Shown here one piece after another: positions 241 through 53,095 of a DNA stretch of 64,000 nt; the first letter of the stretch is position 1; each line of letters opens with the position of its first letter. The notes beneath the pieces are model-generated. The model was not told the DNA's origin and made no database searches. It saw nothing but the letters and a program-made list of their open reading frames with translations. The position numbers were made by a program, and so were the translations under genes. Source of the stretch: Anaerolineae bacterium (GTDB lineage: Bacteria > Chloroflexota > Anaerolineae > Anaerolineales > Anaerolineaceae); the NCBI GenBank assembly GCA_013314735.1, contig JABUFD010000001.1:310001-374000 (forward strand). Direction: 5' to 3'.

Positions 241-363
241 TATTTTTTAATATCTACTTAGAATTCGATGATATTATTTTTTTATATACATTCACCAATT
301 CCCCATCAGTCCATTAACCGGGAATTCACGTTGATTCGTCAAATTCGATCCATCGTTTGCCAA

Positions 364-385: not shown

Positions 386-420
386 GTAATTTCACCAAAA
401 TTGTTGAAAGGAGTCAGGTT

Positions 421-2448: not shown

Positions 2449-2472
2449 TTGGTAAACGTCTGATTTTCTGAA

Positions 2473-2505: not shown

Positions 2506-2533
2506 AACATATCAGGGAAGGAAGGTCTGAAGT

Positions 2534-4707: not shown

Positions 4708-4717
4708 TCACTACAGG

Positions 4718-6760: not shown

Positions 6761-6794
6761 CATGGCAGACGAACTTACATTGACAGGGATCTAG
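5787..6794 (+). CDS. ABC transporter ATP-binding protein, DppF/OppF type (operon 1)
   Basis: Second ATPase of the importer, 335 residues. Motifs in order: Walker A GESGCGKTT (about 52-60), Q-loop MIFQDPYASLNPRM typical of OppF, signature FSGGQRQRIGIARAL, Walker B LVVADEPVSALDVS, switch region VSHNMSVIRYM, and the C-terminal Cys motif CVFNPRCKYAKEVC. The start used follows AGGAGAGCAAGTGAAG; an earlier in-frame ATG at 5742 overlaps the previous stop and has weaker support. The protein equals its paralogue at 39494 except in the last ten residues (ending ADELTLTGI here), because the repeated DNA ends there. An intrinsic terminator closes the operon. Confidence 0.94.
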   Translation: MNSQDIILDVKGLKKYFPLKSGGLFGKVQGYIKAVDDVTFYVKRGETIGVVGESGCGKTTLGRCISLLYEPTAGDVKVYLDEGVLDVGNMNKEETKKFRRNVQMIFQDPYASLNPRMTVLNIVGESLLVNDVAKGDEMEQMVGQIVQKVGLKVEHLRRYPHSFSGGQRQRIGIARALVINPQLVVADEPVSALDVSIQAQILNQLKDLQKDFGLSYMFVSHNMSVIRYMSDRIMVMYAGKLVEMAPREVLLNHPRHPYTELLLSAVPRVSRRGSFRLVTPGEPPDLLNLPQGCVFNPRCKYAKEVCKEVAPSLVQVGPDHFVRCHMADELTLTGI

Positions 6795-33578: not shown

Positions 33579-33788
33579 AATACTTCCTCCTGGTTTCCAA
33601 TGCAATTAATCCATTTCACGATCGATATGATGCAGAATTATTTCTGTCAAAACATAAAAATATGCTTAACAAGTGAAATTCTGCGTCATTCACATTGTAT
33701 TGTAATGAATGAAAATATTTCAACTCCAAAATCGGCATGAATGGCGGCACGAAATGAAAATTTTTTTCATTGCAGAAGGTAAAACCAT

Positions 33789-33854
33789 GCAATATTTGTG
33801 TTTTCTCACAAACAACCGCAGATTTGTGCATAATAATAGCAGATTTGTACATGA
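33789..33854. repeat. Three direct repeats, possible operator array
   Basis: GCAATATTTGTG (33789), GCAGATTTGTGCAT (33818) and GCAGATTTGTACAT (33839) lie in the same direction. The last two are 21 bases apart, two helical turns, so a protein could bind both on one face. A related GCAGATTGTTGTAT is on the minus strand upstream of the ArsR-type regulator gene (49825-49838). Confidence 0.5.
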
Positions 33855-33900
33855 CTCTTCACAGGAGGCATGATATAAAAAAGTAGTTCCCAGAGAATGA

Positions 33901-34063: not shown

Positions 34064-36064
34064 GTGAAAAAGTTTTATTATGTTTTGTCCGTATTGATGG
34101 TCATCGCGATGCTTTTTGCCGCCTGCCAAAAGCCCGCTGAGACCGAAACCGCAGAAGAGGTGACCGCTGAGGAAACCACTGCGGAAGAAACCACAGCCGA
34201 AGAAGCTGAGGAAGCTCCCGAAGTAGAGGCCCCGAGCGCCTACCAGGAAGCCCCGATGCTGGCTGAAAAGGTTGCCGCTGGCGAATTGCCCCCCGTGGAA
34301 GAACGCCTGCCCGTGAACCCCTTCATTGTGGGTCCTGGCGTCCTGATCGTTGAAGGCGATATGCCCAACTGGCAGTCTGGTATTTATGGTGGCGAGCTGC
34401 AGATGGCCCACCGCGGCGATTTCCCGCCTGATGTCTTCATTGGTTCCAACGAAGGCTACCTGGCTGGCGCCGGTATTGGTATTGAAGGCGTGCAAGGGAA
34501 TGTGTTCGAGAGCTTCGACGTGAGCGAAGACGCCCGCACCTTCACCTTCAAAATGCGCGAAGGCCTCAAATGGTCTGACGGCGAACCTGTCACCCGCGAA
34601 GACGTTGAATTTGCGTGGAACGATGTGCTCAACAACAAAGAGCTGTTCCCCTCTGGCGTTCCGGGCAACTGGGTTTCTCCTGTGACCAAGAATGCCGCCA
34701 CCCTCGAATTCGTGGATGACTGGACCTTCACCATGACCTTCGACGATCCCTACGGCTCCCTCGTGGTTGTGATGGCGATCAAAGGCTGGGTTGGTTACAC
34801 CGACCTGGTCAAGCCCGCCCACTTCCTAAAGGAATTCCACAAGGATTACGCCGATGAAGCCGAACTGGTTGAGAAAATCGAAGCGGCTGGCTACACCGGC
34901 ATCGAGAGCTGGATCAACCTCTTCAACCAGAAGGACATCACCAACTGGGAAGCCCACCTCGAAGATGCAATCCCCTTCCCGCGCCTGTACCCGTGGATTT
35001 TGGTCGAAATGACTGAAGGCGCCCTGGTGTACGAACGCAACCCCTACTACTACAAAGTGGATGTGGAAGGCAAGCAGCTGCCCTATATTGACCGGATCGT
35101 GACCGCCCGTGTGGATGACGTTGAAATGGTCAACATGCGCGCCATCGCCGGCCAGGTGGACTTCACCCGTGAAAGCCCCGACATTCAGCAGATTTCTGTT
35201 TACAAAGAGCAGGAAGAAGCCGGCAATTTCACCGCCTACATTTTTGACAACCATGTGAACCCCGCCCTGATTGGTTTCAACTTCGAAGCCAAAGACGAGG
35301 CCTTCAAAGAGGTTGCCAATGACCTGCGCTTCCGCCAGGCTCTGAACCATGCCATCGACCGCGAAGAGATCAACCAGACCGTTTACTTCGGCCTTGCGTA
35401 TCCCTCCATCGCCACCCCGTCGGATGAATCCGTGTATGATGTCGAAAAAGCCAACGCCCTGCTCGATGAAATGGGCATGACCGAACGCGACGCCAACGGC
35501 TTCCGCAAGACCCCGTCCGGCAAGGAACTGCTGGTCTACATCGAACAGGCTGAATACCTGGCCGAGCACACCACCATCTGCGAACTGCTGGTCGAATACT
35601 GGGCAGAAATCGGCATCAATGCCAAGATGGAAATCATTTCCTCTGACCTGCTGAACGAACGCTCAGCGAACTCAGAAACCATGGTTACCATCGGTTGGGC
35701 GCACGTACCGCTGTGGTCTACCAATGGTTGGAATGACTGGGAACCCAGCACTGCAGAGTGGAGCCGCTGGGCCAACACGCAGGACGAATTCGAAGGAATC
35801 GAACCCCCCGCCGAAGCCAAGGAACTGTGGGAGCTGTTTGAACAGCGTGCCACCATGCCTACCGGTTCTCCTGAAGAGCAGGCTCTGTTCCAGAAGATGC
35901 TTGAGAACTACAACCAGTACCTGTGGCGCATTTCCCTCTTCACCGGGATTAACCCGCTGATCATTTCCAAAGATCTGTGCAACATTCCGGAAAAGGGTAT
36001 CGCGATCGCTACCGACTACTCGATGGAACAGTTCTTCTTCTGCGAAGGTTCCGGCCGCAATTAA
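34064..36064 (+). CDS. Family-5 extracellular solute-binding lipoprotein (ABC operon 2)
   Basis: Binding protein of the second Opp/Dpp-type importer, 666 residues. Signal MKKFYYVLSVLMVIAM, lipobox LFAAC (Cys about 21), then a Glu/Thr/Ala linker (about 25-50). SBP_bac_5 signatures include FKMREGLKWSDGEPVTRED. It starts with GTG, preceded by GAAAGGAGTCAG, the same leader as operon 1. The two binding proteins are clearly homologous along their length yet well diverged, so they probably bind different but related ligands. Codon choice (CGC, GGC, AAC rich) is more biased than in copy 1, which suggests high expression. Confidence 0.93.
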   Translation: MKKFYYVLSVLMVIAMLFAACQKPAETETAEEVTAEETTAEETTAEEAEEAPEVEAPSAYQEAPMLAEKVAAGELPPVEERLPVNPFIVGPGVLIVEGDMPNWQSGIYGGELQMAHRGDFPPDVFIGSNEGYLAGAGIGIEGVQGNVFESFDVSEDARTFTFKMREGLKWSDGEPVTREDVEFAWNDVLNNKELFPSGVPGNWVSPVTKNAATLEFVDDWTFTMTFDDPYGSLVVVMAIKGWVGYTDLVKPAHFLKEFHKDYADEAELVEKIEAAGYTGIESWINLFNQKDITNWEAHLEDAIPFPRLYPWILVEMTEGALVYERNPYYYKVDVEGKQLPYIDRIVTARVDDVEMVNMRAIAGQVDFTRESPDIQQISVYKEQEEAGNFTAYIFDNHVNPALIGFNFEAKDEAFKEVANDLRFRQALNHAIDREEINQTVYFGLAYPSIATPSDESVYDVEKANALLDEMGMTERDANGFRKTPSGKELLVYIEQAEYLAEHTTICELLVEYWAEIGINAKMEIISSDLLNERSANSETMVTIGWAHVPLWSTNGWNDWEPSTAEWSRWANTQDEFEGIEPPAEAKELWELFEQRATMPTGSPEEQALFQKMLENYNQYLWRISLFTGINPLIISKDLCNIPEKGIAIATDYSMEQFFFCEGSGRN

Positions 36065-36101
36065 TCTGCAACTCTGAGCAATCAGATACAAACCAATGAA
36101 A

Positions 36102-36132
36102 ACGGTGGGGATGGGGTATCCCTCCCCACCGT
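36102..36132 (+). other. Intercistronic hairpin between binding-protein and permease genes (operon 2)
   Basis: Perfect ten-base stem ACGGTGGGGA/TCCCCACCGT with an 11-base loop and no T run, in the same place as the hairpin at 2473 but with a different sequence. Conservation of position and not of sequence suggests selection for an RNA structure that protects the binding-protein message. Confidence 0.6.
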
Positions 36133-36227
36133 AACATTGATAGCCAAATACACAAATAGGGAACAGGGAGTTTGGAGCAGTCATTCCGATTGCTTTTCAC
36201 AAGAGATGAAATCCGGAGGCATACCCC

Positions 36228-37229
36228 ATGCTTAAATATGTATTACGCCGTTTATTAATGATGATTCCCATGCTTCTCCTGGTTTCGATGGTGGCCTTCA
36301 TCCTCATCGAATTACCCCCTGGAGACTTCATGACAACCAAGATTACCAACTGGCAGTTGTCCGGTTTGCAGGTCAGCCAGCAGGAAATCGATGCGATGAT
36401 CCGCCGTTTTGGTCTGGATCAGCCAATTCACATCCGCTATCTCACCTGGCTGCGACGCCTGGTGATTGACCAGGACCTGGGCATTTCGTTCGAATACCAG
36501 CGCCCGGTGGCGCAACTGATCAAAGAACGCCTGCCAGCAACCATGGCCCTGGCTTTTACTGCCTTGATTGCTTCGTGGTGCCTGGCGATCCCGATTGGAA
36601 TCTATTCTGCCACCCACCAGTATTCAGGTTTTGACTACGTATTCACCTTCATCGGCTTTGTCGGAATGGGCACGCCTGGCTTCCTGCTGGCGATGCTGCT
36701 GGCCTGGGTCAGTATCCGATACTTCAATTTTTCCCCGATTGGTTTGATGTCGATGAGTTTTATCGGGAAACCCTGGGATTGGGCGAAGATCGTGGATGTG
36801 CTCAAGCATGTCTGGTTCCCGATCCTGATCATGTCGATCGGCGGTGCTGGCGGTTTGATGCGCACCATGCGCAACAACCTGCTGGATGAAATGGGTAAGC
36901 AGTATGTGGTGACCGCCCGTGCCAAAGGTGTGAAACCCACCAAACTGCTGCTGAAATACCCGGTACGCCTGGCGATCAATCCTGTGATCGTTGGCACGGC
37001 TGGCATTTTGCCGCATCTGTTCACAGGCGAAGGCCTGATCGCGATTGTTTTGGGCCTCGATACAATTGGCCCATTGCTTCTGATGTCGGTCCAACAGCAG
37101 GACATGTATGTGGCTGGCAGTATTTTGACCATTCTGGGCGCTTTGATCATGCTCGGTAACTTCCTCTCGGATATTGTCCTTGCGGCAGTCGATCCGCGGG
37201 TGCGCCTGGGTGAAGGAGTGGTACGATGA
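36228..37229 (+). CDS. ABC transporter permease, DppB/OppB type (operon 2)
   Basis: 333 residues, same length as its paralogue at 2534. N-terminal membrane segment MMIPMLLLVSMVAFILIELP, the DppB phrase FGLDQPIHIRYLTW, and the EAA loop at QYVVTARAKGVKPTKLL. About six membrane segments. Ribosome site CCGGAGG upstream. The stop and the next start share ATGA. Protein similarity with copy 1 is high near the C-terminal core and lower around residues 35-60, outside the membrane. Confidence 0.93.
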   Translation: MLKYVLRRLLMMIPMLLLVSMVAFILIELPPGDFMTTKITNWQLSGLQVSQQEIDAMIRRFGLDQPIHIRYLTWLRRLVIDQDLGISFEYQRPVAQLIKERLPATMALAFTALIASWCLAIPIGIYSATHQYSGFDYVFTFIGFVGMGTPGFLLAMLLAWVSIRYFNFSPIGLMSMSFIGKPWDWAKIVDVLKHVWFPILIMSIGGAGGLMRTMRNNLLDEMGKQYVVTARAKGVKPTKLLLKYPVRLAINPVIVGTAGILPHLFTGEGLIAIVLGLDTIGPLLLMSVQQQDMYVAGSILTILGALIMLGNFLSDIVLAAVDPRVRLGEGVVR

Positions 37230-38413
37230 CAATCGATAAAGAAAAAAACATCCCTATTGAGGAAGAGGAAGTTCCGGTTGAGATATTGGAACAAATTTCC
37301 GCCCGGGATGAAAAAATTTATTATGCTTCCCAGGGCCAGTTAATTGCCTGGCGGTTTCAGCGCCACAAATTGGCGATGATCTCCCTTGTGATTCTGGTGA
37401 TCATGTACATCATGGCGATGGTGCCTGGCTTTTTTGCTCCCTATGGGAAAGACCAGCGTTTCAAAGGATATTCCTATGCCCCCATCTCCAAGATCCACCT
37501 GTTTGATGAGGAAGAAGGCTTTGTGGGGCCGTTTGTGTATGCCCTGACCCAGGAGATTGATCCGCAAACCTTTAAAAAGACCTTTGTTCCCAACGAAGAT
37601 GGTACCATTTACCGCATCAGCATGTTTGTGCGCGGGACTGAGTATAAAATTGTTGGGAATTGGACAAGTGATCTGCACCTGTTTGGTGTCAAGGGCCAGA
37701 ATGAGGGTGAGAATGTTGCCCCGATGTTCCTGTTCGGTACAGACCAGGTTGGACGCGATGTGTTCTCGCGTACCATTTACGGCAGCCAGATTTCCCTCAC
37801 CATCGGTTTGATTGGTGTGTTCATGAGCTTTATCTTCGGCATCACCCTCGGCGGTCTGGCGGGTTATGTGGGCGGCCTGTTTGACGCGGTGGTGCTGGTG
37901 ATCATCGACCTCTTGCAGACGATTCCGCAGCTGCCCTTATGGATGACATTATCTGCCGCCGTTCCGCGTGAAATTCCGGTGGTGCAGCGTTACTTCATGA
38001 TGACGGTCGTGCTTTCCTTCCTGGGCTGGACGGGCCTGGCGCGCGTGGTGCGTGGCCGCCTGCTGGCGATGCGGGAAGAAGATTTCGCCCTGGCCGCCAA
38101 AGGCGCCGGTGCCAGCAACTGGCGTATCGTGATGCGACACCTGATCCCCGGTTTCTCCAGCCATTTGATCGTGACAATCACCATCAATATCCCTGCGATG
38201 ATCCTGGGTGAGGTAGCGCTGGGCTTCCTGAGCCTGGGGATGCAGAAACCCGCGGTCAGCTGGGGGATTCTGCTGCAGGACGCGCAGAACATCGTTGCCA
38301 TTGCACATCAGCCATGGCTGATGATTCCTGCCCTGGTTGTGATCGTCACCGTCTTACTGTTCAACTTTGTCGGTGATGGCTTACGTGACGCCGCTGACCC
38401 GTTCGTCATGTAA
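37226..38413 (+). CDS. ABC transporter permease, DppC/OppC type with extended loop (operon 2)
   Basis: 395 residues with the same long extracytoplasmic insertion as copy 1 (about residues 75-165), ending in SDLHLFGVKGQN. The core motifs DQVGRDVFSRTIYG, GGLAGYVGGLFDAVVLVIID and REEDFALAAKGAGAS are present. DNA tracts around 37854-37930, 38025-38115 and 38205-38265 are almost the same as in copy 1, while the first third of the gene differs strongly. The N-terminus is acidic (NIPIEEEEVPVEI). Confidence 0.92.
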   Translation: MTIDKEKNIPIEEEEVPVEILEQISARDEKIYYASQGQLIAWRFQRHKLAMISLVILVIMYIMAMVPGFFAPYGKDQRFKGYSYAPISKIHLFDEEEGFVGPFVYALTQEIDPQTFKKTFVPNEDGTIYRISMFVRGTEYKIVGNWTSDLHLFGVKGQNEGENVAPMFLFGTDQVGRDVFSRTIYGSQISLTIGLIGVFMSFIFGITLGGLAGYVGGLFDAVVLVIIDLLQTIPQLPLWMTLSAAVPREIPVVQRYFMMTVVLSFLGWTGLARVVRGRLLAMREEDFALAAKGAGASNWRIVMRHLIPGFSSHLIVTITINIPAMILGEVALGFLSLGMQKPAVSWGILLQDAQNIVAIAHQPWLMIPALVVIVTVLLFNFVGDGLRDAADPFVM

Positions 38414-38424
38414 TGAGAAAGGAT

Positions 38425-40467
38425 AAAGAAGACATGGCAGAGAACAAGAACCAACTATTGGTGGAAGTGGACGATTTGAAGACGTACTTCCATTTACATG
38501 AAGGGACCGTGAAAGCGGTGGACGGGGTGAGCTTCAACCTGTACAAAGGGAAGACGCTGGGGGTGATCGGGGAAAGCGGATGCGGGAAATCAGTCACGTC
38601 GCAGTCGATCATGCGGCTGGTGCAAACCCCGCCGGGGAAGATCGAAGGCGGGCATATCTGGCTGTATCATTACAATGAAGACGGGAGCGTGAAAGACAAA
38701 GTCGACATCGCGGCGTTGAAACCGGAAAGCAAAGAACTGCGCGCGATCCGGTGGCGGGACGTGGCGATGATCTTTCAGGAACCGATGACCTCGATGAGCC
38801 CGGTGCACACGGTGTATGACCAGATCAACGAAGCGATGATGCTGCACCTGCCGGGGATCACGAAAGAAGAAACACGAGCGCGGACGATCGAACTGCTGCG
38901 GCGGGTGGGGATTCCACAGCACGAGAAGATGGCAGACGCGTACTCGTACCAGTTGAGCGGAGGGATGCGGCAGCGCGCGATGATCGCGATGGCGCTGTCA
39001 TGCAACCCCGGGCTGCTGATCGCGGACGAACCGACGACGGCGCTGGACGTGACCGTGGAAAGCCAGATACTGGAGTTGATCCGGGAACTGCAGGCGGAGT
39101 ACAACATGGGGATCATGTACATCAGCCACGACCTGGCGGTGGTGGCGGAGATGTCGGATGACATCATGGTGATGTACCTAGGGCAGGCGGTGGAGAAAGC
39201 GGACACGAACGAGATCTTCGACAACCCGCTGCACCCCTACACGCAGGCGCTGTGGCGGTCAATCCCGACCATAGACGGGTCGCTGGAGCGGCTGGATTCG
39301 ATCAAGGGGACCATCCCGAGCCCATACTACAAACATAGCGGGTGCCGATTCTACGGGCGGTGCGAAAAGCGGATCGAAGGGAAATGCGACGAGAGCTTCC
39401 CGGAACTGCTGGAAGTGAAACCGGGGCACCAGGTACGCTGCTTCTTGTATGAATGAGACAGCGGAGAGAAAGAGAACAGGAGAGCAAGTGAAGATGAATT
39501 CACAAGACATCATCCTCGATGTAAAAGGACTGAAGAAATACTTTCCGTTGAAGAGCGGGGGACTGTTCGGGAAAGTGCAGGGGTACATCAAAGCCGTGGA
39601 TGACGTGACGTTCTACGTGAAGCGCGGCGAAACGATCGGCGTGGTGGGGGAGAGCGGATGCGGGAAGACGACGTTGGGGCGGTGCATCAGCCTGCTGTAC
39701 GAACCGACGGCGGGAGACGTGAAAGTATACCTGGACGAAGGGGTACTGGACGTGGGGAACATGAACAAGGAAGAGACGAAGAAGTTCCGGCGGAACGTAC
39801 AGATGATCTTCCAGGACCCGTACGCGTCATTGAATCCGCGGATGACGGTGTTGAACATCGTGGGGGAATCGCTGCTGGTGAATGATGTGGCGAAGGGGGA
39901 CGAGATGGAACAGATGGTGGGGCAGATCGTGCAGAAGGTGGGGCTGAAGGTGGAACACCTGCGGCGCTACCCGCACAGCTTCTCCGGGGGGCAGCGGCAG
40001 CGGATCGGGATTGCGCGGGCGCTGGTGATCAACCCGCAGCTGGTGGTGGCGGATGAGCCGGTATCGGCGCTGGACGTATCGATCCAGGCGCAGATCCTGA
40101 ACCAGCTGAAAGACCTGCAGAAAGACTTTGGGCTGTCGTACATGTTCGTGTCGCACAACATGAGTGTGATCCGGTACATGAGTGACCGGATCATGGTGAT
40201 GTATGCGGGGAAACTGGTGGAGATGGCACCGCGGGAAGTATTGCTGAACCATCCGCGGCACCCGTATACGGAGTTGCTGCTGTCGGCGGTGCCGCGGGTA
40301 TCGCGGCGGGGGAGCTTCCGGCTGGTGACACCGGGGGAACCGCCGGACCTGTTGAACCTGCCACAGGGGTGCGTGTTCAACCCGCGCTGCAAGTACGCGA
40401 AGGAAGTGTGCAAAGAGGTGGCACCGAGCCTGGTACAGGTGGGGCCGGATCATTTTGTGCGCTGCCA
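38425..40467 (+). repeat. 2,043-bp direct repeat, copy 2 (two ABC ATPase genes)
   Basis: Second copy of the segment at 4718-6760, offset by 33,707 bases. Sequence outside both ends is different, so both copies are embedded in their own operons and are not the result of a simple read-assembly error within one locus. Confidence 0.9.
38434..39456 (+). CDS. ABC transporter ATP-binding protein, DppD/OppD type (operon 2)
   Basis: 340 residues, identical to the product of the gene at 4727, with Walker A GESGCGKS, signature LSGGMRQRAMIAMAL, Walker B LLIADEPTTALDVT and the C-terminal Cys-rich tail. The ATG follows AAAGGATAAAGAAGAC; a start at 38413 would add seven residues and overlap the permease stop. 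Because the ATPases are the same, the subunits of both importers must be interchangeable, and ligand choice rests on binding proteins and permeases. Confidence 0.95.
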   Translation: MAENKNQLLVEVDDLKTYFHLHEGTVKAVDGVSFNLYKGKTLGVIGESGCGKSVTSQSIMRLVQTPPGKIEGGHIWLYHYNEDGSVKDKVDIAALKPESKELRAIRWRDVAMIFQEPMTSMSPVHTVYDQINEAMMLHLPGITKEETRARTIELLRRVGIPQHEKMADAYSYQLSGGMRQRAMIAMALSCNPGLLIADEPTTALDVTVESQILELIRELQAEYNMGIMYISHDLAVVAEMSDDIMVMYLGQAVEKADTNEIFDNPLHPYTQALWRSIPTIDGSLERLDSIKGTIPSPYYKHSGCRFYGRCEKRIEGKCDESFPELLEVKPGHQVRCFLYE

Positions 40468-40501
40468 TACGTTGGATGAATTTGAACTGAAGGGGATTTA
40501 A
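39494..40501 (+). CDS. ABC transporter ATP-binding protein, DppF/OppF type (operon 2)
   Basis: 335 residues, the same as the protein at 5787 up to VRCH; the last ten residues differ (ending TLDEFELKGI). Walker A GESGCGKTT, Q-loop MIFQDPYASLNPRM, signature FSGGQRQRIGIARAL, Walker B LVVADEPVSALDVS. The stop codon lies inside the loop region of the terminator that ends the operon. Confidence 0.94.
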   Translation: MNSQDIILDVKGLKKYFPLKSGGLFGKVQGYIKAVDDVTFYVKRGETIGVVGESGCGKTTLGRCISLLYEPTAGDVKVYLDEGVLDVGNMNKEETKKFRRNVQMIFQDPYASLNPRMTVLNIVGESLLVNDVAKGDEMEQMVGQIVQKVGLKVEHLRRYPHSFSGGQRQRIGIARALVINPQLVVADEPVSALDVSIQAQILNQLKDLQKDFGLSYMFVSHNMSVIRYMSDRIMVMYAGKLVEMAPREVLLNHPRHPYTELLLSAVPRVSRRGSFRLVTPGEPPDLLNLPQGCVFNPRCKYAKEVCKEVAPSLVQVGPDHFVRCHTLDEFELKGI

Positions 40502-40657: not shown

Positions 40658-43414
40658 ATGAAACTGCAGGCAATTGATTTGCGATGTGATGATCGGCGAA
40701 ACCCACTCGGTGTGGAGCGAAATACTCCACACCTGAGTTGGGTATGCCAATCCTCGAAGCGCGGTGAACAACAGATTGCTTATCAGATTCTGGTCGCTTC
40801 AGATCCGGAGAACCTGACAGAAGAAAAAGCTGACTTTTGGAATAGTGGGAGGGTTGATTCCAACCAGACCTACGGCATTCCATATAATGGGAAACCGTTA
40901 TCGTCCATGTCGTTGGTGTATTGGACAGTACGTGTGTGGGGTCGGGATGGACGTGAAAGCAACTGGGCACAGCCTGCGCAATGGGGAATGGGAATTCTAT
41001 CGGTGCGGGAATGGTCTGCTGACTGGATTGGTGCGGTGGATGAATCCGAGGCATTACTCCCGCCCGGACGGAAGTATCATCTTCACCGAATTGGTGATAC
41101 ACCGGATGATCCATGGGTAAAAGTAAATCCGCTGGCAAAAGCCAGTATCGAGGTGCGGAAGGAAATATTCATTTCTGATGGCCTGGAACGGGCGGCGGTG
41201 TACATCTGCGGCCTGGGCGCATTTGAGTTGTATATGAATGGCAGCCGTATCGGGACCGATGTGTTATCTCCCGCATGGACCGATTACGATCATCGCTGCC
41301 AGTACCTGACATTTGATGTCACCAGGCAGGTACTGGCGGGCAGGAATGTGGTTGGTGTCGTTCTGGGTAACAGCATGTACAATGTGGTGGGGGGGCGTTA
41401 CAGCAAGTTCGTCGGTTCGTATGGACCGCCGAAGATGATCCTCCAGATGGCCCTCACCTATGACGATGGCCGATTGGAAATGTTTGTCAGCGATTCATCC
41501 TGGCATTGGCGGAAAAGCCCTACCACGTTCAATTGCATATTTGGCGGAGAGGATTACGATGCCCGGTTGGAGGATAGTGCATGGCTGGATACCGGCGGTG
41601 ATCTCTCACAGTGGCAGCCAGTAAAAGTGGTGCAGCCGCCTGCTGGCAAGTTAACTTCGGAACGGATTGAGCCCCGAACCGTGCTGCGAGAAGTGAAGCC
41701 TGTCATGGTGACCGAACCGGCCCCGGGTGTACTCGTGTATGATCTGGGTGAGAATATTGCTGGCCGGATGCGGATTGGGATATCGGGTGAACGCGGCACG
41801 TCCATTCGGATGCTGCCTGGTGAGATGGTTAATAACCGGGGTTTCGTCAATCAGCGCAATATGACCAGTGGCAGGGACGATTGGACGATCGAGTTCAATT
41901 ACGTCGTTGGCGGAAAGAATGGACGGGAGACCTGGGCTCCTCGCTTTTCGTATACTGGTTTCCGGTACATTCAGGTGGAATATCAACCTGCGCTGCCGGG
42001 TGGCAGCCTGCCAATACTGCACGAGTTGGTCGGGGAAGTGGTTGGTCTAAATATTGACCAGGCAGGTATGTTCAATTGTTCTTGCGACAACATTCGCAGT
42101 ATCTATCGCCTCGTCTTTAATGCCATGGTCAGCAATCTGCAAAGCGTTGCAACAGATTGTCCGCACCGTGAAAAATTGGGTTGGCTTGAACAGCTGTACC
42201 TGATGGGGCCTTCGCTGCTGTACCAATTTGATCTTCGGAATTTTTTGCGGAAAGCATTGGTCGATATGCGCGATGCGCAGCAAGAACAGGGGTTGGTACC
42301 GGATATTGCGCCAGAGTATGTGATCTTCGAAGATGGTTTTCGTGATTCACCGGAATGGGGATCAGCGGTGATCCAATCTGCGTGGCAGTATTATCAGCAC
42401 TACCCCAATCTGGCATTGTTGAGAAAACATTACCGCGCCATGCGGCGCTACCTGGATTACCTGACGAGTAAAAGCAAGGATGGAATCATCAGTCATGGAC
42501 TGGGTGACTGGTATGACTTTGGCCCTGGGGCATTTGGCAGTTCACAGCTGACTTCGAGCGGAATCACAGCAACCCTGGTCTATTACGAAAATGTGAAAAT
42601 CCTGGCGAAGGTAGCGAGATTGCTCGAACGTGACCAGGAAGCGGATGAGTTGGAACAACTGGCGATGACCGTTCGGGAACAATTTAACCGGACTTTTCTC
42701 TCGAAAGAAAGAAACCATTATGACCGCAACAGCCAGACAGCCAACGCAATGTCGTTGACAACTGGTGTGATACCTGTAGAATATCGCAATGCGGTGTCCG
42801 AGCAGTTATTGCTGGATCTCCAGAAGCGCAAATACCAGGTTACAGCCGGTGATGTAGGGCATGTTTATGTCCTGCGTGCGCTGACAGAAATGAATCGCCA
42901 TGATGTTGCTTTACAGGCTATCCGGCGGGTTGAGGGGTTCGGTTATCTCCATCAACTACAGATGGGGGCGACCACCCTGACGGAAGCATGGGATGCTTCA
43001 GAATTGTCATCCCATAATCATATGATGCTGGGACACGCGATGGAGTGGTTCTATGCTGTATTGGGTGGGTTGCGGTTCGATGAACGCTTTCCTGATACCC
43101 ACCAATTTATTGTCAGCCCGGAACCGGTATTGGATATTGAGTGGGCCTCTGTGCAGCATAACAGTGTATTCGGAATGATTCAAATTCAGTGGGCTTTACA
43201 GGATGGGGTGTTCTCACTCGAATTAACGGTACCCATCAACACGTCTGCCCTGGTGTACCTGCCGGTGGAATCTCCCCGGTTTGTGAAAGAGAGCGGTATT
43301 TCGGTATATGAAATTCCAGGATCGCGATTTGTAACAACAGAAAATGGCAAATGTATTTTTGAGGTTCAATCCGGCCAGTATGAATTCAGCATGGATTGGC
43401 ACGATAAGGAATAG
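40658..43414 (+). CDS. Alpha-L-rhamnosidase, glycoside hydrolase family 78
   Basis: Removes terminal alpha-L-rhamnose with inversion. The 918 residues begin with the beta-sandwich typical of the family (CDDRRNPLGVERNTPHLSW, then AYQILVASDPENL). A carbohydrate-binding-like domain (about 160-350, FELYMNGSRIGTDVLSPAW) comes next. The (alpha/alpha)6 catalytic barrel follows, with TDCPHREKLGWLEQLYL (about 503-519), HGLGDWYDFG and TTLTEAWDASELSSHNH (about 770-786), which supply the acidic catalytic residues. No signal peptide, so it is cytoplasmic and acts after import. A small membrane protein gene follows 11 bases downstream. The ABC operon just upstream is a natural source of its substrate. Confidence 0.93.
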   Translation: MKLQAIDLRCDDRRNPLGVERNTPHLSWVCQSSKRGEQQIAYQILVASDPENLTEEKADFWNSGRVDSNQTYGIPYNGKPLSSMSLVYWTVRVWGRDGRESNWAQPAQWGMGILSVREWSADWIGAVDESEALLPPGRKYHLHRIGDTPDDPWVKVNPLAKASIEVRKEIFISDGLERAAVYICGLGAFELYMNGSRIGTDVLSPAWTDYDHRCQYLTFDVTRQVLAGRNVVGVVLGNSMYNVVGGRYSKFVGSYGPPKMILQMALTYDDGRLEMFVSDSSWHWRKSPTTFNCIFGGEDYDARLEDSAWLDTGGDLSQWQPVKVVQPPAGKLTSERIEPRTVLREVKPVMVTEPAPGVLVYDLGENIAGRMRIGISGERGTSIRMLPGEMVNNRGFVNQRNMTSGRDDWTIEFNYVVGGKNGRETWAPRFSYTGFRYIQVEYQPALPGGSLPILHELVGEVVGLNIDQAGMFNCSCDNIRSIYRLVFNAMVSNLQSVATDCPHREKLGWLEQLYLMGPSLLYQFDLRNFLRKALVDMRDAQQEQGLVPDIAPEYVIFEDGFRDSPEWGSAVIQSAWQYYQHYPNLALLRKHYRAMRRYLDYLTSKSKDGIISHGLGDWYDFGPGAFGSSQLTSSGITATLVYYENVKILAKVARLLERDQEADELEQLAMTVREQFNRTFLSKERNHYDRNSQTANAMSLTTGVIPVEYRNAVSEQLLLDLQKRKYQVTAGDVGHVYVLRALTEMNRHDVALQAIRRVEGFGYLHQLQMGATTLTEAWDASELSSHNHMMLGHAMEWFYAVLGGLRFDERFPDTHQFIVSPEPVLDIEWASVQHNSVFGMIQIQWALQDGVFSLELTVPINTSALVYLPVESPRFVKESGISVYEIPGSRFVTTENGKCIFEVQSGQYEFSMDWHDKE

Positions 43415-43865: not shown

Positions 43866-46800
43866 TCACCGTACATTGCCGCGGTATTCCTTGGGGGTCA
43901 ATCCTGTTTCTTTGCGGAATACCCTTGAAAAATATGCCTGGCTCGAGAAACCAGCATCCATCGCAATCTGGGTGATGCTGGTGTTCGGCTTTTCGTACAG
44001 CATTTTCTTTGCCTGTTCGATCCGGTAGCGGTTGATGTATTTATTCGGTGGCATGCCCAGTTCTTCACTGAAACAATGGGTCAGGTAATCTTCATTCACC
44101 CCCAGTAACTGGGCCAATTCATAACGGGAAAAAGTGTTCTGGTAGTTCTCGTGGATAAATACAATTGCCTGGCGTACTAGGTGACGGCGTTCAGATTGTC
44201 CCGATACTTCCTTCTTCAATATCGCCTCGAGCCGGTCCAACAGCGTGGTCGGGTCGATGACACCTTTTTGTAGTACAGACAGGACACCTTTTTCGAACAG
44301 TTTAATGTCTTCCTGGGTCAGCGCCTGGCCGGTGAGGATGATCACCGGTATATTCATCAATGCTGGTGAACGCTGTAATTCGCGTAGAACGCCAAACCCG
44401 TCGAGTTCCGGCATGATCAGGTCCAGCAGGATTAAATCCGGGACAGCATGCTTAAGAACATCCAGTGCCTCCACGCCATTATGGGCCAGGAGGATTTCAC
44501 AGCCGGAGCAACGTGATTTGATCAGTTCCGATTCGGTGGCAAGCAGGTGAGGGTCATCATCCACGAGGAGAATCTGATGGCGCATCTCTTCTTCAGGAGC
44601 AGGAGTGATATAACGGGAGAGGATATTGGTGATGTCTTGACGATCAAAAGGCTTTTGCAATGTGCTGATGGGCGCCATGGTGTGCAACGCCTGGTGTTCA
44701 GCACTCAGGAAGATGATGGGGACCTGGCTGAGGGTTGGTTCACTCTTGATGGCCTGCAGCATAGCTGCCGATTCATCATCTGCTTCCTGCAAATCGAGCA
44801 GGATCAGGTTGGGAGGTTGTTCATCGATGTGGGAAAGTTCGGCGGCTACCGGTTCCAGAACCAGCACACGGTACTGGTTCTGCCCCAACAGGCGCACAAC
44901 ATTATTGATAATGGTTTGGTTGCGGCTGATCAACCAAACCATATCAGGGATGAGGGGCCGAACGCCGGTTGATTGTTCAGTTCGCGGATCGAGTGGCAGG
45001 AGGATCTCGAAGGTGGAGCCGTTATGCTCAACCCCGCTGGAAAATACCCGGATGCTTCCCTGGTGCAACTCGACAATATGGCGCGAAATTGCCAACCCCA
45101 ATCCCATTCCGCCAAATCCGCGGCTGGAAGTGCGAGCCGATTGCTGGAACTCATTGAAGATCAATCCCTGTTCCTCAAGCGGGATGCCGATGCCGGTATC
45201 TCGTATCAGGATGCTGACGAAATCGCCATCTTTGTGGGCCGCGATGTGAATGGTTCCTGCTTCCGTGAATTTCACCGCATTGCTGACCAGGTTCAACATC
45301 ACCTGGTTCATCCTGCCAGGATCAATCATCACTGTTGGCAATGTTTCATCAATGGAGGTGGTAACTGACAGGTTTTTCTCCCCCGCCAGTTGCTCCGTAA
45401 TATCAGCGATTTCTCCAATGAACCTGTTCATGTTCACCGATTGCTTTGCCAGTTTGATTCTTCCCATTTGCGTGCTGGTCAGGTCCAGCACATCTCCGAT
45501 CAGCGCGTTCAGGTACCTCGCGGACTGTGTAATGCGCTCCAGGTAGGTTTTTTGCCGTGCTGTTTGTTCTTGCTGCGTGCTATCTGCCCCATTTTGTTCC
45601 TGCAGAATTTCGGCAGCCAGCTGGGTATTATTGATAATCAGGTTGATCGGGTTACGAAGCTCATGGGAAACCAGGGATAAAAAGCGGCTTTTCAGGCGAT
45701 TCGCCTCTTCCGCGCTGGCTCTGCGTTCTTCAGAGAGGCGCCAGGCATGGCGGATTTCATCACGCAATTTGATACCCTTCAATGCGCTGCCGATTTGGGT
45801 GGAAAAGATGGAGTAGATCATCCCTTCTGATTCGGTGGTGGTATTGTCTGTTTCAAATACGAGATAACCTACCTGGTCTTCCTCAACATGCAGTGCCTCA
45901 ATGATGAATATTTGTGAATCGATCATATCCTGAATCGATTGCGGGAGTAGTTGCCGGCTGGAAAAGGTGATCCCTCCGGCAGGTAGTGGTACCTGCCGGC
46001 CATTACGGTACGCGAACAGTAAGGTCGCATTACCCAGCGGATTTTCAGGACTGTCATACGTCATCAGGTAAAATCCGGGGATTTCCATCCGGGGAAGCAC
46101 CTGTGACAGGTTGGAAATGAATTGTTCAAATGACTGCCCCAGCATATTGGCGCGCTCAATTTCCCGCAGTACCTGGGTACGGGCAAGATAGAGCTGGTTG
46201 CGCTCTTCCAATACCTGTACTGCTTTTTGCGCAGTAATCACGCGTGCTTTTTCAAGCAAGTTCTCAAAGCGGAACAGGTTATCCTGTTCAATGTATGGCA
46301 ATAATTCATTCCGCATTGCTGTGAGAATATGGTTGAAATCCATATTCTCTTCACCCAACCCGTTAAACTCGTTAATAATTTCCTCAAAGGCATCCAGGAA
46401 GGTTTCATCGGTCTGTTCTTCGGATAATGTATGCAGGAAGGTATTCAGCAACTGGTTGATCCAAACCCGCAGTCGGGTTCGATGGTGGATATCGGAAGCA
46501 TTCAGCATGTTGCGAATGATTCGGCCGCGTTGTGCCCATACCGCTGAAAAAGGTAGTGCCCGGGGTGCGGCGTCATTCAAGCGGGATATCATCTGGTTTG
46601 CACAACCACAGGATTGACGGATACTGAGACCCAGTGGAATGTAGGTAAGCGATGGCACCGGGCGTCCCTGAATCTGGTCATGCAGAATGGAGGTGGACTG
46701 GTACCCCATGCGGTAAAAAGGCAGGCTGACGGAGGTGATTGCCGGCCGGGTCAGCCGGACTTGCTTCCCATCGTTATAACCATTGATGCCAACATCTTCG

Positions 46801-47486
46801 GGGACGCGGATGCCTGCATTTCGAAATTTCTCCAGCAAGCGCAAGGCTGACCCATCCACCGTTGTAATCAGGAACTCAAAGCCCAGCGGTTGATCTGGAA
46901 AGCGCCGTATACGTTCATCTAACTGGGTTTCCGTGAGTTTCAATGCTGGATCATAGATGTGGTATTCCGACATGATCTGTTCATACGCAGAAGTTCGGTA
47001 GGTGGCATGCCACATGGATTCATCCAGCAAGGCGATTTTCCGGTAATTGTGGACAGAAACCAGGTGATCAATCAGTTTTCGCATGCCAAAATAATTGTCG
47101 ATCATCACGGCAGGATATTTCCCAACTTTTGTTTCCACGGTGACTACGGGAGTGTTCTCATATGATGACAGGAATTCGAGGAATTCCTCCGCTGTGGCGT
47201 TCACGCTGACAAAAGACTGCCAGGCCAGGATGCCATCAATGTGGCGATGATCAATCAGATCATAGAGAACCGCCTGTGGGTCCCGCGTGAATTCACTGCC
47301 GGAAACATACAGGAGGTTAATATTCCGCTCCAGGCCTGCATTCATCACTCCCTGCCAGAACCACCATTTTTCGACAGCAAAATTTCCTCCCGGTGACTGG
47401 GAGAAATAGGCAATGGTAGGTTTCGGCTGTGCGGTATGTGAAAAATAGGACCGGACTCCAGGGGTTGGAGTGGAATACGATGTCAC
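43866..47486 (-). CDS. Soluble hybrid histidine kinase/response regulator with LacI-type sensor and AraC output
   Basis: One 1,206-residue chain carries a whole sensory pathway. Residues about 22-290 form a LacI/ribose-binding-type ligand domain without its DNA-binding head (TIAYFSQSPGGNFAVEKWWF, VPEDVGINGYNDG). A helical linker and a GAF-like domain (about 440-580) come next. HisKA follows, with phospho-accepting His about 608 (FLSLVSHELRNPINLI). The ATPase domain (about 720-835) has NLVSNAVKFTEAG, DTGIGIP and GGMGLGLAIS. A first receiver (about 848-960) keeps Asp about 898 but lacks the N-terminal acidic pair. A complete second receiver (about 970-1090) has ILLVDDDP, LILLDLIMP and LQKG. AraC DNA-binding helices (about 1105-1206) end the chain. 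No signal peptide or membrane span is visible. The GTG start follows AAGGAG. Confidence 0.92.
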   Translation of the reverse strand: MTSYSTPTPGVRSYFSHTAQPKPTIAYFSQSPGGNFAVEKWWFWQGVMNAGLERNINLLYVSGSEFTRDPQAVLYDLIDHRHIDGILAWQSFVSVNATAEEFLEFLSSYENTPVVTVETKVGKYPAVMIDNYFGMRKLIDHLVSVHNYRKIALLDESMWHATYRTSAYEQIMSEYHIYDPALKLTETQLDERIRRFPDQPLGFEFLITTVDGSALRLLEKFRNAGIRVPEDVGINGYNDGKQVRLTRPAITSVSLPFYRMGYQSTSILHDQIQGRPVPSLTYIPLGLSIRQSCGCANQMISRLNDAAPRALPFSAVWAQRGRIIRNMLNASDIHHRTRLRVWINQLLNTFLHTLSEEQTDETFLDAFEEIINEFNGLGEENMDFNHILTAMRNELLPYIEQDNLFRFENLLEKARVITAQKAVQVLEERNQLYLARTQVLREIERANMLGQSFEQFISNLSQVLPRMEIPGFYLMTYDSPENPLGNATLLFAYRNGRQVPLPAGGITFSSRQLLPQSIQDMIDSQIFIIEALHVEEDQVGYLVFETDNTTTESEGMIYSIFSTQIGSALKGIKLRDEIRHAWRLSEERRASAEEANRLKSRFLSLVSHELRNPINLIINNTQLAAEILQEQNGADSTQQEQTARQKTYLERITQSARYLNALIGDVLDLTSTQMGRIKLAKQSVNMNRFIGEIADITEQLAGEKNLSVTTSIDETLPTVMIDPGRMNQVMLNLVSNAVKFTEAGTIHIAAHKDGDFVSILIRDTGIGIPLEEQGLIFNEFQQSARTSSRGFGGMGLGLAISRHIVELHQGSIRVFSSGVEHNGSTFEILLPLDPRTEQSTGVRPLIPDMVWLISRNQTIINNVVRLLGQNQYRVLVLEPVAAELSHIDEQPPNLILLDLQEADDESAAMLQAIKSEPTLSQVPIIFLSAEHQALHTMAPISTLQKPFDRQDITNILSRYITPAPEEEMRHQILLVDDDPHLLATESELIKSRCSGCEILLAHNGVEALDVLKHAVPDLILLDLIMPELDGFGVLRELQRSPALMNIPVIILTGQALTQEDIKLFEKGVLSVLQKGVIDPTTLLDRLEAILKKEVSGQSERRHLVRQAIVFIHENYQNTFSRYELAQLLGVNEDYLTHCFSEELGMPPNKYINRYRIEQAKKMLYEKPNTSITQIAMDAGFSSQAYFSRVFRKETGLTPKEYRGNVR

Positions 47487-47598: not shown

Positions 47599-48660
47599 TC
47601 ACAAATGCTTCACGAGAAACGAATATGCCTTGTCACCGCTGATCTGGTGGCGCCCGGTGAAATAATCCACTTCGAGGTGTTTTTGCTTTCCCCAAACCGA
47701 GTACACATTCTCTCTTCCCTTGTTCACCGCTTCCTCAACACCATTACGCGGGAAGATGTCATCATGATCCCCGGATTCCACCAGGATCGGGCGCGGGGCG
47801 ATTAGGCCAACCAAGTCATAAATTTCACCAAAGTCTGCCAGCCCGGGGACATAGTTGCATTCACAGTGGTGCATCCCATAGATCGACTGCCGGAAATTGC
47901 AGTAGTAGCCGGAAATGACAGCGGCGCGCACCTTCGGATCGAGGGCTGTGTAAAAGAAGGTGAGCATGCCGCCGCCAGAGATACCCATGACTCCCAATTT
48001 TTGGAGGTCGATGTCACTCCGACTACCCAAATATTTTGTCAGGCTGAAGGCATCATGGATTCGCAATCCCAGGGCTGTTCCACCGAAATAGGAGGCGAAG
48101 CGTGCCGTGTAGGCACAGGTTTGCCAGCTGGAAAAGCCGTTTATCTGCGACAAGTCGGTCTGGCGTTCGCCGAAGCAGGATATTTCAGGCGCGGCTACCA
48201 GAAAGCCGGCACGGCAGAGAGTGACAGCGAAATCCTTATGGTAACCGTCCGGATTATCTCGTTCGCCACCATTTTCCCATAATCCCACGATATCTTTAAC
48301 ACCGTATCCGTGTCCATGGAAAGCCAGTACCGGGGTGTAGGGCGGCTGCGCCTGTTTTGGAACCAGCACGTAAAAAGACATCAGCGCATGTTCCCAGGTA
48401 TGCATCAACCATTTTTGGCGGATGTAATCGCCTTTGTCGATTTCTTCCACCAGCCTTGCATCGTTTGGTGCGGGTGGAAGGTCGTTGAAACCGATCTTCT
48501 CACGAAGCCGTACCCTCACTTCATCCTGCCACAGAAGCGCCTCTTCCATCGTTTGGGCCTGGAAGCGGTAGGGAGCGTTTTCGGGTTGGTACAGGGCGGC
48601 CAGCCCATGGGTGGGCTGAAGTTCCGGGAAGTCGTTCGCATTGAGTACAGTACTGGCCAT
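47599..48660 (-). CDS. Alpha/beta hydrolase, dienelactone hydrolase/acetyl-xylan-esterase-like
   Basis: 353 residues with an alpha/beta hydrolase fold. Signs are the oxyanion strand TPVLAFHGHGYGVKDIVG (about 116-133), the nucleophile elbow VMGISGGGMLTFF (Ser about 226), the acid in PILVESGDHDDIFPRNG, and a C-terminal His near EVDYFTGRHQISG. Related cytoplasmic proteins remove acetyl or other acyl groups from sugars, but the exact substrate is unknown. AAAAAGGATACCTC precedes the ATG. It lies between the hybrid kinase and the ArsR-type regulator; a terminator separates it from the latter. Confidence 0.85.
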   Translation of the reverse strand: MASTVLNANDFPELQPTHGLAALYQPENAPYRFQAQTMEEALLWQDEVRVRLREKIGFNDLPPAPNDARLVEEIDKGDYIRQKWLMHTWEHALMSFYVLVPKQAQPPYTPVLAFHGHGYGVKDIVGLWENGGERDNPDGYHKDFAVTLCRAGFLVAAPEISCFGERQTDLSQINGFSSWQTCAYTARFASYFGGTALGLRIHDAFSLTKYLGSRSDIDLQKLGVMGISGGGMLTFFYTALDPKVRAAVISGYYCNFRQSIYGMHHCECNYVPGLADFGEIYDLVGLIAPRPILVESGDHDDIFPRNGVEEAVNKGRENVYSVWGKQKHLEVDYFTGRHQISGDKAYSFLVKHL

Positions 48661-49974: not shown

Positions 49975-51150
49975 TCAATAAAATTTCAGGCGGTGGTAGG
50001 TATCCAGCATCCAGTGGTATGAATCAAGGTGAATTGTGGGTGGCAGGGAATGATCTTCGCAGAAAATGAAACGTGCATTACGCTTTTTCATTCCCTCGAT
50101 CAATGTTGTTGTTTCACTCACAATCACATCACGATCATTGGTTTCCAACACCCGTACATCCAATCCGCCGATGAATGCCAGGGAATCACCGTATTGCCCG
50201 GCAAAATCAAACGGGTCATTATGGTCTGCCTTGCGTTCGATCGGGTTCAGGGCATCAAATCCGGCATCGACAATCAGCGGCATCGCCTGGGCGACACTAC
50301 CACAGGAGTGCAGCACAACCGGTAAGCCGAAGGAATGGAAGAATGCAACCATTTCGGCATAGTAAGGAAAGATCAAATTTTTGAAAACACGCGGAGAAGC
50401 AAATATGCCGTTCTTATACCCGAGGTCTTCGTATAACCATATACCATGTGGCAACCCCACTTCATCAAACATGTAGCGGAAAGCTCTTTTGTAAAAATCA
50501 GTTGTCACCCGGTTGTAGTCATGCACCCAATCCGGATCGAGCAGGAGGCTTTCATACAGGCACACATCTCCCATCGATTGACGCATATTTTCCCAGATGA
50601 ACTGGTGACCCATATGAACCCAACGGTTCGCTTCCATTCCCTCGTGGTAGCTTTTTCGCATATCTGACAGCTTAAACCGTTGGGGATTCCAATTGACAAG
50701 GTATGGACGGTAATCCCTCTCCCAAACCTCCCGACTGGTCATCTTGAAGGAAATATGTTCGGGGGTACCCATTTTGTGTTTCCAATATTTTAAATGTGCG
50801 CCCGAACCATTTTCATGGATCGCCCATTCCTCATTTTCTTCGATGGTTATCTTGTGGTCAATGAGTGGTTCCTGGTTAAACCAGGGACTGACACCGACCA
50901 GGTCATAATCGAACACTTCCCAGGCTGGCACTGGTTCAGGATAATCACCTTCGTTGACCACAGTGACCCAGTTTCCATCCTCAGGATCCCAGCGTGTTTC
51001 ACCAACCCTGTGGTAAATCATGCGAGTTGGATATCCCTGGCGCACCCAGTTCACATAGGTCTCGCGCCAGGGAGAACCCATCAAGCCTACATAGTTGGCA
51101 GTGCCTTTGGTAATCAATGCGTGGATTGCTTGGGATGGCATCATAGTCAT
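49975..51150 (-). CDS. URO-D fold protein, uroporphyrinogen decarboxylase/corrinoid methyltransferase family (copy 2)
   Basis: 391 residues. URO-D barrel features include GFDALNPIERKADHNDPFDF, PVVLHSCGSVAQAMPLIVDAG (a zinc-type HxC also found in MtaA/MtbA methyltransferases) and FIGGLDVRVLETND. The HSCG motif supports a metal-dependent methyltransferase-like activity, as opposed to haem synthesis. The ATG at 51150 is used because CAGGAG lies nine bases upstream. It follows a RACo-like gene by 121 bases on the same strand. RACo proteins reactivate corrinoid proteins for such methyltransferases, so the two may work together, although no corrinoid protein gene is visible here. Confidence 0.85.
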   Translation of the reverse strand: MTMMPSQAIHALITKGTANYVGLMGSPWRETYVNWVRQGYPTRMIYHRVGETRWDPEDGNWVTVVNEGDYPEPVPAWEVFDYDLVGVSPWFNQEPLIDHKITIEENEEWAIHENGSGAHLKYWKHKMGTPEHISFKMTSREVWERDYRPYLVNWNPQRFKLSDMRKSYHEGMEANRWVHMGHQFIWENMRQSMGDVCLYESLLLDPDWVHDYNRVTTDFYKRAFRYMFDEVGLPHGIWLYEDLGYKNGIFASPRVFKNLIFPYYAEMVAFFHSFGLPVVLHSCGSVAQAMPLIVDAGFDALNPIERKADHNDPFDFAGQYGDSLAFIGGLDVRVLETNDRDVIVSETTTLIEGMKKRNARFIFCEDHSLPPTIHLDSYHWMLDTYHRLKFY

Positions 51151-51271
51151 TGGGTGAAACTCCTGAACTCTTATCATTGGGGAAACATTGGACTTCGCAA
51201 GTCGAATGATGAATGCCCAACCACCGGCTGGATCAGCACAGTCAGGTGACCATGATCCGTTGGGGTTTGCC

Positions 51272-53095
51272 TTAAAATTGTAATGCGTCTACATAAATCC
51301 TGGTGAATTCGGGGTGAGCTGTTAGCTCAATATACTCATCACCGCGAATCAGTTCATCCACATGGGCGCGCTTTTCCCGCGAAAGTAGCAGGTGCTTGGC
51401 GCCGATCCCGGCCGCATTACCCACTTGCTGGTAACGATCTTTGGGCAAAACCGGGAACATGCCAATCGACACAGCATTTTCGAGGTCCAGGTATGTGCCG
51501 AACGCACCTGCGATGATGAACTGGTCGATTTCATCAGAAGATATCCCAGCCTCCAATAACAGCACCTCAACACCGGCGCGGATTGCGCCTTTGGCAAGCT
51601 GTATCTCATTGATGTCTTTGCGTGAGACCACAATTTCACCACCGGTGCCGCTTTTTTCGGCGGGAACCAGGATGTATTTGCGTGAACGTCTACCTTCAGA
51701 TTCAACCCCCGGGGCGTCTGGGCGAAGCTGGCCGTTGGGATCAATCATGTGGTGCTTGTTTAACTCCGCCACAGCGTCCAGGATACCGGAACCGCAGATA
51801 CCGATCGGAGCAGCCTTTTCGATGGTCTGGTAAAAGGCTGTTCCTTCGTCAATGCGTACCTTTTCAATCGCACCCGGCATGGCGCGCATACCGTTGGTGA
51901 TATGAGCGCCTTCAAATGCCGGCCCTGAAGCACATGAACAGCTTAACAATCGGCCATCATGCGCCAAGCTGATCTCAGTATTGGTGCCAATATCCAGGGA
52001 AACGATCGTTTCACCCCGCATTCTGGATTTGATCACTGTATTGGTGGCCAACAACATCGACACATGGTCGGCGCCGACAAAACCGGCAATGTTGGGCGGC
52101 ATATACAGGTAAGCTGCAGGAGATATTGCCAGCCCGATCTCCACCGCTCGTCTTTCGACAGCATCTGAGACACTGGCGATATAGGGGGCAGTACCAAGTT
52201 GTGAAACCGGGATGCCGAGAAACAGGTGGTGGATGGCTGTGTTCCCCACGAAGACAGAATCAACAATCTGTTCAGGCTGCGCATTGGCATATCGGCAGAG
52301 TTCATGAATCATCTCATTTAACCGATCGACCAGTCGTTGTTGCAGAAGTTTCGCCCCATCGGGGTGCTGGTTGGCGTAAGCGATGCGGCTGACAACATCT
52401 TCGCCGTAAGGTACCTGCGGGTTGCCAAAGCCAGCCTTGGATACGGTTAGCCCGTTTTTCAGGTCAACCAGGTAGCCAGCCATCTTGGTCGTGCCGATAT
52501 CGACAGCCAACCCGAAAATGGGCAAATCCTGCGGCAGCACTGCGATCACTTCGGTGCAATTGCGCACCACTACCTGTGCTTGCCAATGCAAGGCGCGCAA
52601 AGTATTTGATAATGTCTGCAGCAGCGGAAAGCTGATGGTAGCATGGCGAATGCCATGGACTTCCAATGCGTCCTGCACCCGCAGCATATCCGAACGCAAA
52701 TCGTGCACCGTGGGTGGTTGCAGGTTTATTTTGAAGGAATGAATCATTGGGTCGAGATCGAAAGGTTCTTCGGTGCCTTCGGTTTGAAGGCGCTGGGCGG
52801 TGGTAAGGGCTTCGGGTGGGATATTCAGTTTCACATTTGAAGTCGCCCGTGTCTGGCATGCCAGCCGGATACCCGATGACTTGTCAGCTTCAGAAAGGAT
52901 ATCCTGCTCCACCTCGCTCATCGGGGAAAGGTTTCCCTGCATGAGTTGCACGCGGCACTTGCCACACCATCCATCACCGCCACAAAGTGCGGCAATTTCC
53001 ACACCGGCTCGCTGCGCCGCATCCAGAATGGTCATCTCCTCATTGGTAATGATCCGTAATCCCACAGGTTCGAGGTCTATCGTGTATTCTTTCAT
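51272..53095 (-). CDS. RACo-like ferredoxin/ASKHA protein (corrinoid protein reactivase family)
   Basis: 607 residues. An N-terminal plant-type [2Fe-2S] ferredoxin domain has CGGDGWCGKC (about 38-47) and a fourth Cys in RLACQTRA (about 79). A linker region and an ATPase of the ASKHA class follow. Its nucleotide motifs are GLAVDIGTTKMAGYLVD (about 207-223), VSLDIGTNTEISL (about 370-382), ASGPAFEGAHI, and IAGAFGTYLDLENAVSIG (about 540-557). RACo proteins use ATP to drive uphill reduction of inactive Co(II) corrinoid to Co(I) in methyltransferase systems. AAAAGGAGATC gives the ribosome site. The downstream URO-D gene is the likely partner. Confidence 0.9.
   Translation of the reverse strand: MKEYTIDLEPVGLRIITNEEMTILDAAQRAGVEIAALCGGDGWCGKCRVQLMQGNLSPMSEVEQDILSEADKSSGIRLACQTRATSNVKLNIPPEALTTAQRLQTEGTEEPFDLDPMIHSFKINLQPPTVHDLRSDMLRVQDALEVHGIRHATISFPLLQTLSNTLRALHWQAQVVVRNCTEVIAVLPQDLPIFGLAVDIGTTKMAGYLVDLKNGLTVSKAGFGNPQVPYGEDVVSRIAYANQHPDGAKLLQQRLVDRLNEMIHELCRYANAQPEQIVDSVFVGNTAIHHLFLGIPVSQLGTAPYIASVSDAVERRAVEIGLAISPAAYLYMPPNIAGFVGADHVSMLLATNTVIKSRMRGETIVSLDIGTNTEISLAHDGRLLSCSCASGPAFEGAHITNGMRAMPGAIEKVRIDEGTAFYQTIEKAAPIGICGSGILDAVAELNKHHMIDPNGQLRPDAPGVESEGRRSRKYILVPAEKSGTGGEIVVSRKDINEIQLAKGAIRAGVEVLLLEAGISSDEIDQFIIAGAFGTYLDLENAVSIGMFPVLPKDRYQQVGNAAGIGAKHLLLSREKRAHVDELIRGDEYIELTAHPEFTRIYVDALQF

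Follow-up and report, generated by a model that had tools for sequence, protein, structure and literature searches.

The gene at 43866-47486 on the minus strand of the window (the whole stretch of 64,000 nucleotides of Anaerolineae DNA analysed here) probably encodes a cytoplasmic single-chain two-component regulator that would do, in soluble form, what the Bacteroides hybrid two-component systems (HTCS) do. The frame runs open from a GTG start at 47486 down to 43866, giving 1206 codons for a 1206-residue soluble LacI-sensor hybrid histidine kinase/AraC regulator, with a Shine-Dalgarno sequence (AAGGAG) close 5' of the GTG and just 3 further in-frame codons upstream before a stop. Pfam, with every match well over its curated cut-off, gives the domain order Peripla_BP_3 (residues 140-293), HisKA (599-672), HATPase_c (722-833), two receivers (two Response_reg stretches, the best at 972-1086) and an AraC-type helix-turn-helix (HTH_18, residues 1124-1202, minus strand, 43881-44117), so this domain search recovers the two receivers and the AraC output that a first-pass annotation had read from the letters. 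That annotation also held the chain to be soluble and had set a signal peptide or membrane span beforehand as the refuting test: membrane-like hydropathy was not found anywhere in the chain, where the top 19-residue Kyte-Doolittle mean is 1.39 (the highest values in 31 relatives are 1.2-1.9), and no signal peptide-like stretch was found at the N-terminus.

This protein combines features of two well-known kinds of regulator. Like the Bacteroides HTCS (e.g. BT1754 and BT4663), it carries a kinase, a receiver and an AraC helix-turn-helix on one chain, and its family, judged by gene neighbourhood, lies in glycan-utilisation loci whose genes it may control. In HTCS, however, the sensor is extracytoplasmic and the chain membrane-bound, whereas the window regulator is soluble throughout, has a LacI-type sensor and contains an inserted pseudo-receiver. 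Since the membrane span and the extracytoplasmic sensor are absent, the regulator lies outside HTCS in the strict sense. The other point of comparison is E. coli XylR, in which a cytoplasmic LacI/GalR-type ligand domain drives an AraC DNA-binding domain; XylR has no kinase and no receivers, whereas the window regulator has a complete kinase and two receivers. It can thus be described as a XylR with a kinase inserted, or as an HTCS with a cytoplasmic LacI sensor.

The sensor half was modelled over residues 20-590 from 63 aligned sensors, with a mean pLDDT of 92.7 and a pTM of 0.90. The LacI-type ligand-binding domain (residues 20-292, minus strand, 46611-47429) is delimited by Pfam and the predicted structure, and in the model residues 20-295 superpose on Lac repressor with Z 23.4 (3.1 Å over 256 residues) and on CcpA with Z 23.2 (2.7 Å over 256 residues), while Foldseek matches the same residues to LacI-family proteins with E as low as 2.8e-16. 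The predicted model thus confirms the type-1 periplasmic-binding/LacI fold that had been proposed for residues 20-290. R164, D211 and N238 stand at positions that, judged by the LacI-family sequence motif, resemble sugar contacts. The ligand-domain fold is shared with the LacI/GalR transcription factors, whose N-terminal helix-turn-helix is absent from the regulator: only about 20 residues precede the ligand domain, too few to hold one, in agreement with the earlier statement that the DNA-binding head is missing.

The ligand domain ends in an R-x-S-C-G-C motif (residues 290-295, minus strand, 46602-46619) in which the R, S, C, G and C are invariant in the alignment of all 32 full-length proteins. 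The motif recurs in nearly all relatives that join the same sensor to a kinase only, to GGDEF or to HD-GYP, and it also ends two plain Chloroflexota LacI regulators (L033 and L034). We therefore dropped it as a mark exclusive to fused sensors, and its presence in these plain regulators suggests from sequence that the fused sensor derives from an RxSCGC-bearing Chloroflexota LacI subgroup. Between sensor and kinase lie a helical linker domain (residues 296-450, minus strand, 46137-46601, from the secondary structure of the model) and an alpha/beta domain (residues 451-545, minus strand, 45852-46136). The latter had been called GAF-like, a description that survives in outline only: the model shows an alpha/beta shape, but a GAF identity for residues 451-571 was not borne out, hhalign against bona fide GAF domains of relatives giving a probability of 4.8%.

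The kinase is complete, as first proposed, both in its Pfam domains and in its catalytic residues. HisKA (minus strand, 45471-45692) carries the acceptor His608 at 45663-45665, and HATPase_c (minus strand, 44988-45323) has intact N, G1 and G2 boxes. Receiver 2 (residues 972-1086, minus strand, 44229-44573) has all five catalytic residues (D976, D977, D1022, T1052 and K1074). Receiver 1 (residues 849-962, minus strand, 44601-44942) retains D898 and K945 but has S854-R855-N856 in place of the acidic pair, a loss which the first-pass annotation had seen and from which it had suspected a structural role. The pair is missing family-wide in the 32 full-length proteins, with Asp898 and Lys945 each kept in 29/32, and receiver 1 is probably a pseudo-receiver that is not phosphorylated.

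These observations bear on the route of the phosphate, which the first-pass annotation had described as a phosphorelay. In a true multistep relay it would pass from the histidine to receiver 1, then to an HPt domain encoded elsewhere, and finally to receiver 2; the presence of two receivers after the kinase, the first with D898 and K945 retained, fits such a path. No HPt domain was found in the chain by Pfam, however, the Mg-binding acidic pair is gone from receiver 1 throughout the family, and ShkA, a chain of kinase, pseudo-receiver and receiver, passes phosphate directly to its last receiver (PMC7010744). We therefore regard the multistep relay as very unlikely and consider that phosphate probably goes straight from His608 to Asp1022. 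ShkA (Caulobacter) is also the best solved-structure match to the whole-chain model, which is of moderate quality (pLDDT 79), and along with the GacS/BarA and RcsC group it shares with the regulator the order of kinase core, pseudo-receiver and phosphorylatable receiver, although none of these has a LacI sensor or an AraC output. The pseudo-receiver of ShkA binds c-di-GMP, which lifts autoinhibition (PMC7010744; PMC12632262). The DDR linker motif of ShkA is absent from the linker between receivers 1 and 2 of the regulator, which reads PAPEEEMRHQ and is not conserved among relatives.

The phosphorylation residues could also be dispensable. If the regulator worked as a phosphorylation-independent one-component protein like E. 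coli XylR, the kinase core would serve as a scaffold and the sugar signal would be passed on mechanically. The combination of a LacI ligand domain with an AraC output is the XylR pair, and two actinobacterial relatives with the full architecture (L114, 1698-5066, and L118, 9920-13195) have lost the acceptor histidine and the receiver-2 aspartate and have altered ATP-site residues, so phosphotransfer is not essential everywhere. Against this, the acceptor histidine is kept in 30/32 proteins, the window protein among them, and the ATP-binding motifs and receiver-2 residues are nearly always kept across the 32, a conservation that is hard to account for without catalysis. We consider the one-component reading improbable for the window regulator.

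The regulator is not one unique gene but a member of a widespread family for which we found no description: the open-access literature yielded none of soluble LacI-sensor kinases (subscription papers lay outside the search). The complete architecture occurs in 31 distinct relatives, from Chloroflexota, two Spirochaetota, one Streptomyces and one Actinophytocola, and a scan of species genomes gave at least 456 relatives. Class-wide, a sensor match (E up to 1e-40) is present in 96/396 genomes, a count that includes plain LacI regulators and other outputs. The same sensor is joined elsewhere to a kinase only, to a kinase and receiver (Lentzea), to GGDEF or to HD-GYP; in many of the Lentzea loci L085-L125 the HMM scan shows a LacI-sensor kinase that carries a single receiver and lacks the AraC domain. 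The window genome has no second member of the family, its remaining sensor matches being ordinary LacI-sized regulators, and a plasmid search returned only partial matches (kinase, receiver, helix-turn-helix), none of them reaching 80% coverage of the chain. A maximum-likelihood tree of the complete proteins has two groups, clade I, which includes the window protein on the tree's longest branch (1.71), and clade II. A wider reading, which we rate as rather doubtful, takes these proteins as a widespread and so far undescribed class of cytoplasmic glycan regulators. In it a common LacI-type module, made up of the LacI fold, the RxSCGC motif and the helical and alpha/beta linker, would have been swapped onto kinase-AraC, kinase-only, GGDEF and HD-GYP outputs, and the conserved pseudo-receiver (perhaps together with the CGC pair) would sense a further cue from the cytoplasm, for instance redox state or a cyclic dinucleotide, integrating sugar supply with cell state.

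What the sensor may bind is suggested by the genes around it. On the plus strand of the window lie an Opp-type ABC importer operon (ABC operon 2; SBP_bac_5, two permeases and two ATPases; 34064-40501), the presumed target, and a GH78 alpha-L-rhamnosidase (40658-43414), presumably co-regulated; an alpha/beta hydrolase (Abhydrolase_7, 47599-48660) lies directly 5' of the regulator on the same, minus strand, and homologues of it adjoin three relatives. Across the relatives' loci GH88 occurs in 14, GH28 in 11 and CUT1 importer parts in 13-16. Clade II lies almost throughout next to CUT1 importers, GH88 unsaturated-glucuronyl-type hydrolases and GH28 polygalacturonases/rhamnogalacturonases, neighbourhoods that are, by their gene content, pectin loci. 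Clade I, including the window, often adjoins Opp-type ABC operons, and two of its members (L168 and L170) have a xylose-isomerase-like gene and an FGGY kinase nearby, the former also a GH3-like enzyme (the FGGY and GH3 assignments by sequence reading). Sugar-carrying Opp-type importers have been reported (PMC8346543), and the LacI regulator RhmR of C. aurantiacus governs a rhamnose-oligosaccharide operon (PMC3870299). The recurrent glycan-importer neighbourhood supports the earlier proposal of a glycan breakdown product as ligand. Our best guess is plant-cell-wall oligosaccharides, and for the window a rhamnose-containing or other oligosaccharide of this kind appears most likely, rhamnose being named because of the neighbouring GH78 alone.

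Upstream of ABC operon 2 we find a predicted operator, GCAGATTTGTGCAT-N7-GCAGATTTGTACAT, a 21-bp direct repeat recognised by its sequence pattern (plus strand, 33818-33852). Its downstream half-site abuts a predicted promoter, ATGACT-N17-TATAAA (plus strand, 33851-33879), which was read by eye and is not listed by a sigma-70 consensus scan. Genome-wide, the repeat at 21-bp spacing occurs in two copies only, against 0 for the reversed-pattern control, and both precede SBP_bac_5 genes. The second copy (C10:80473-80507) lies 5' of an importer gene that is a paralogue, its protein being 71% identical; here too ATGACT follows in the same arrangement, N17 separating it from TACAAC; the flanking upstream DNA of the two copies is mostly not conserved, and shared ancestry of the paralogous gene could explain the second copy. 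Of the two paralogous ABC operons in the window, ABC operon 2 alone is preceded by the repeat, which was not found ahead of the one at 268-6794. Elsewhere in the genome, a near-perfect inverted (palindromic) copy of the half-site, TGTACAAATCTGCA-N7-TGCAGATTTGTACA, lies at G000:C8:11378-11414 (L180), about 300 bp beyond the stop of another AraC-type gene.

The spacing recurs in relatives. When 30 spacings were compared over the window and 10 clade-I loci, 21 stood out with a mean best match of 10.36 (vs 7.7-9.2); the sequence of these repeats varies, the best being those of the window and L164 (13/14 each), and no convincing repeat was found in L088, L073 and L167. In clade II the repeat TTGGAY-N15-TTGGAY, with half-sites 21 bp apart, lies between regulator and importer, exactly in 7/14 loci examined and with one mismatch in 3 more, a total of 10/14 at a shuffle rate of 0.6% for up to one mismatch; this pattern was applied following a looser scan of all intergenic stretches, in which spacing 21 came top in clade I and not in clade II. 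A MAFFT alignment of the clade-II upstream regions is readable for close relatives only. The window half-site differs from the TTGGAY core, and no TTGGAY-type repeat with up to one mismatch occurs in the window. Direct repeats about 21 bp apart are another likeness to the Bacteroides HTCS, whose predicted operators have half-sites 21 bp apart on average (PMC3878776), those of the window family being predicted sites only.

We infer from its pattern that the 33818-33852 repeat would be the operator of the regulator, an assignment kept provisional by the five other AraC-type helix-turn-helix proteins that the genome encodes. If one of these reads the repeat, then the regulator would have other targets, and its proximity to the GH78 and ABC genes would be incidental; the start of the ABC operon is indeed about 13 kb from that of the regulator, the two being convergent. 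The relatives, however, stand repeatedly next to ABC importers and hydrolases and have 21-bp repeats between regulator and importer, and we consider other targets rather unlikely.

With ABC operon 2 as the target, the regulator could work as follows. An imported glycan breakdown product would bind the LacI-type pocket, and the linker, with its helical and alpha/beta parts, would convey the closure of the pocket to the kinase. Once phosphorylated, His608 would hand the phosphate straight to receiver 2 at Asp1022, and receiver 1 would serve, by analogy with ShkA, as an inhibitory or ligand-binding pseudo-receiver. The AraC domains would bind as a dimer to the two half-sites 21 bp apart beside the -35 box, and the bound dimer would switch on the ABC importer and probably also the hydrolase genes next to it. 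The family indicates that LacI-type sensors of the periplasmic-binding fold drive kinases, cyclases and phosphodiesterases from the cell interior in several phyla. For this class of regulators, from Chloroflexota that are mostly uncultured, the analysis also predicts an operator and target genes, and the natural relatives without phosphorylation residues make the role of phosphorylation testable.

Several further features of these loci are worth recording. The two paralogous Opp-type ABC operons of the window (268-6794 and 34064-40501) lie about 34 kb apart, with ATPases 99-100% identical in protein and 94.8% identical over 2.7 kb of DNA, whereas their binding proteins share only 50%, a difference that points to gene conversion or to a recent duplication of part of the operon. 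A protein family of 840-892 residues is encoded near the regulator in both L048 (7751-10273) and L164 (1313-3991); the L164 member has no Pfam match, and the family is perhaps an undescribed glycoside hydrolase. URO-D-superfamily proteins occur near sugar importers in the window (32463-33605, 49975-51177 and 51272-53095) and in L173 (6114-7118), along with a RACo-type corrinoid activator; they are possible corrinoid-linked methyltransferases and, together with the activator, may strip methyl groups off sugars or other substrates.
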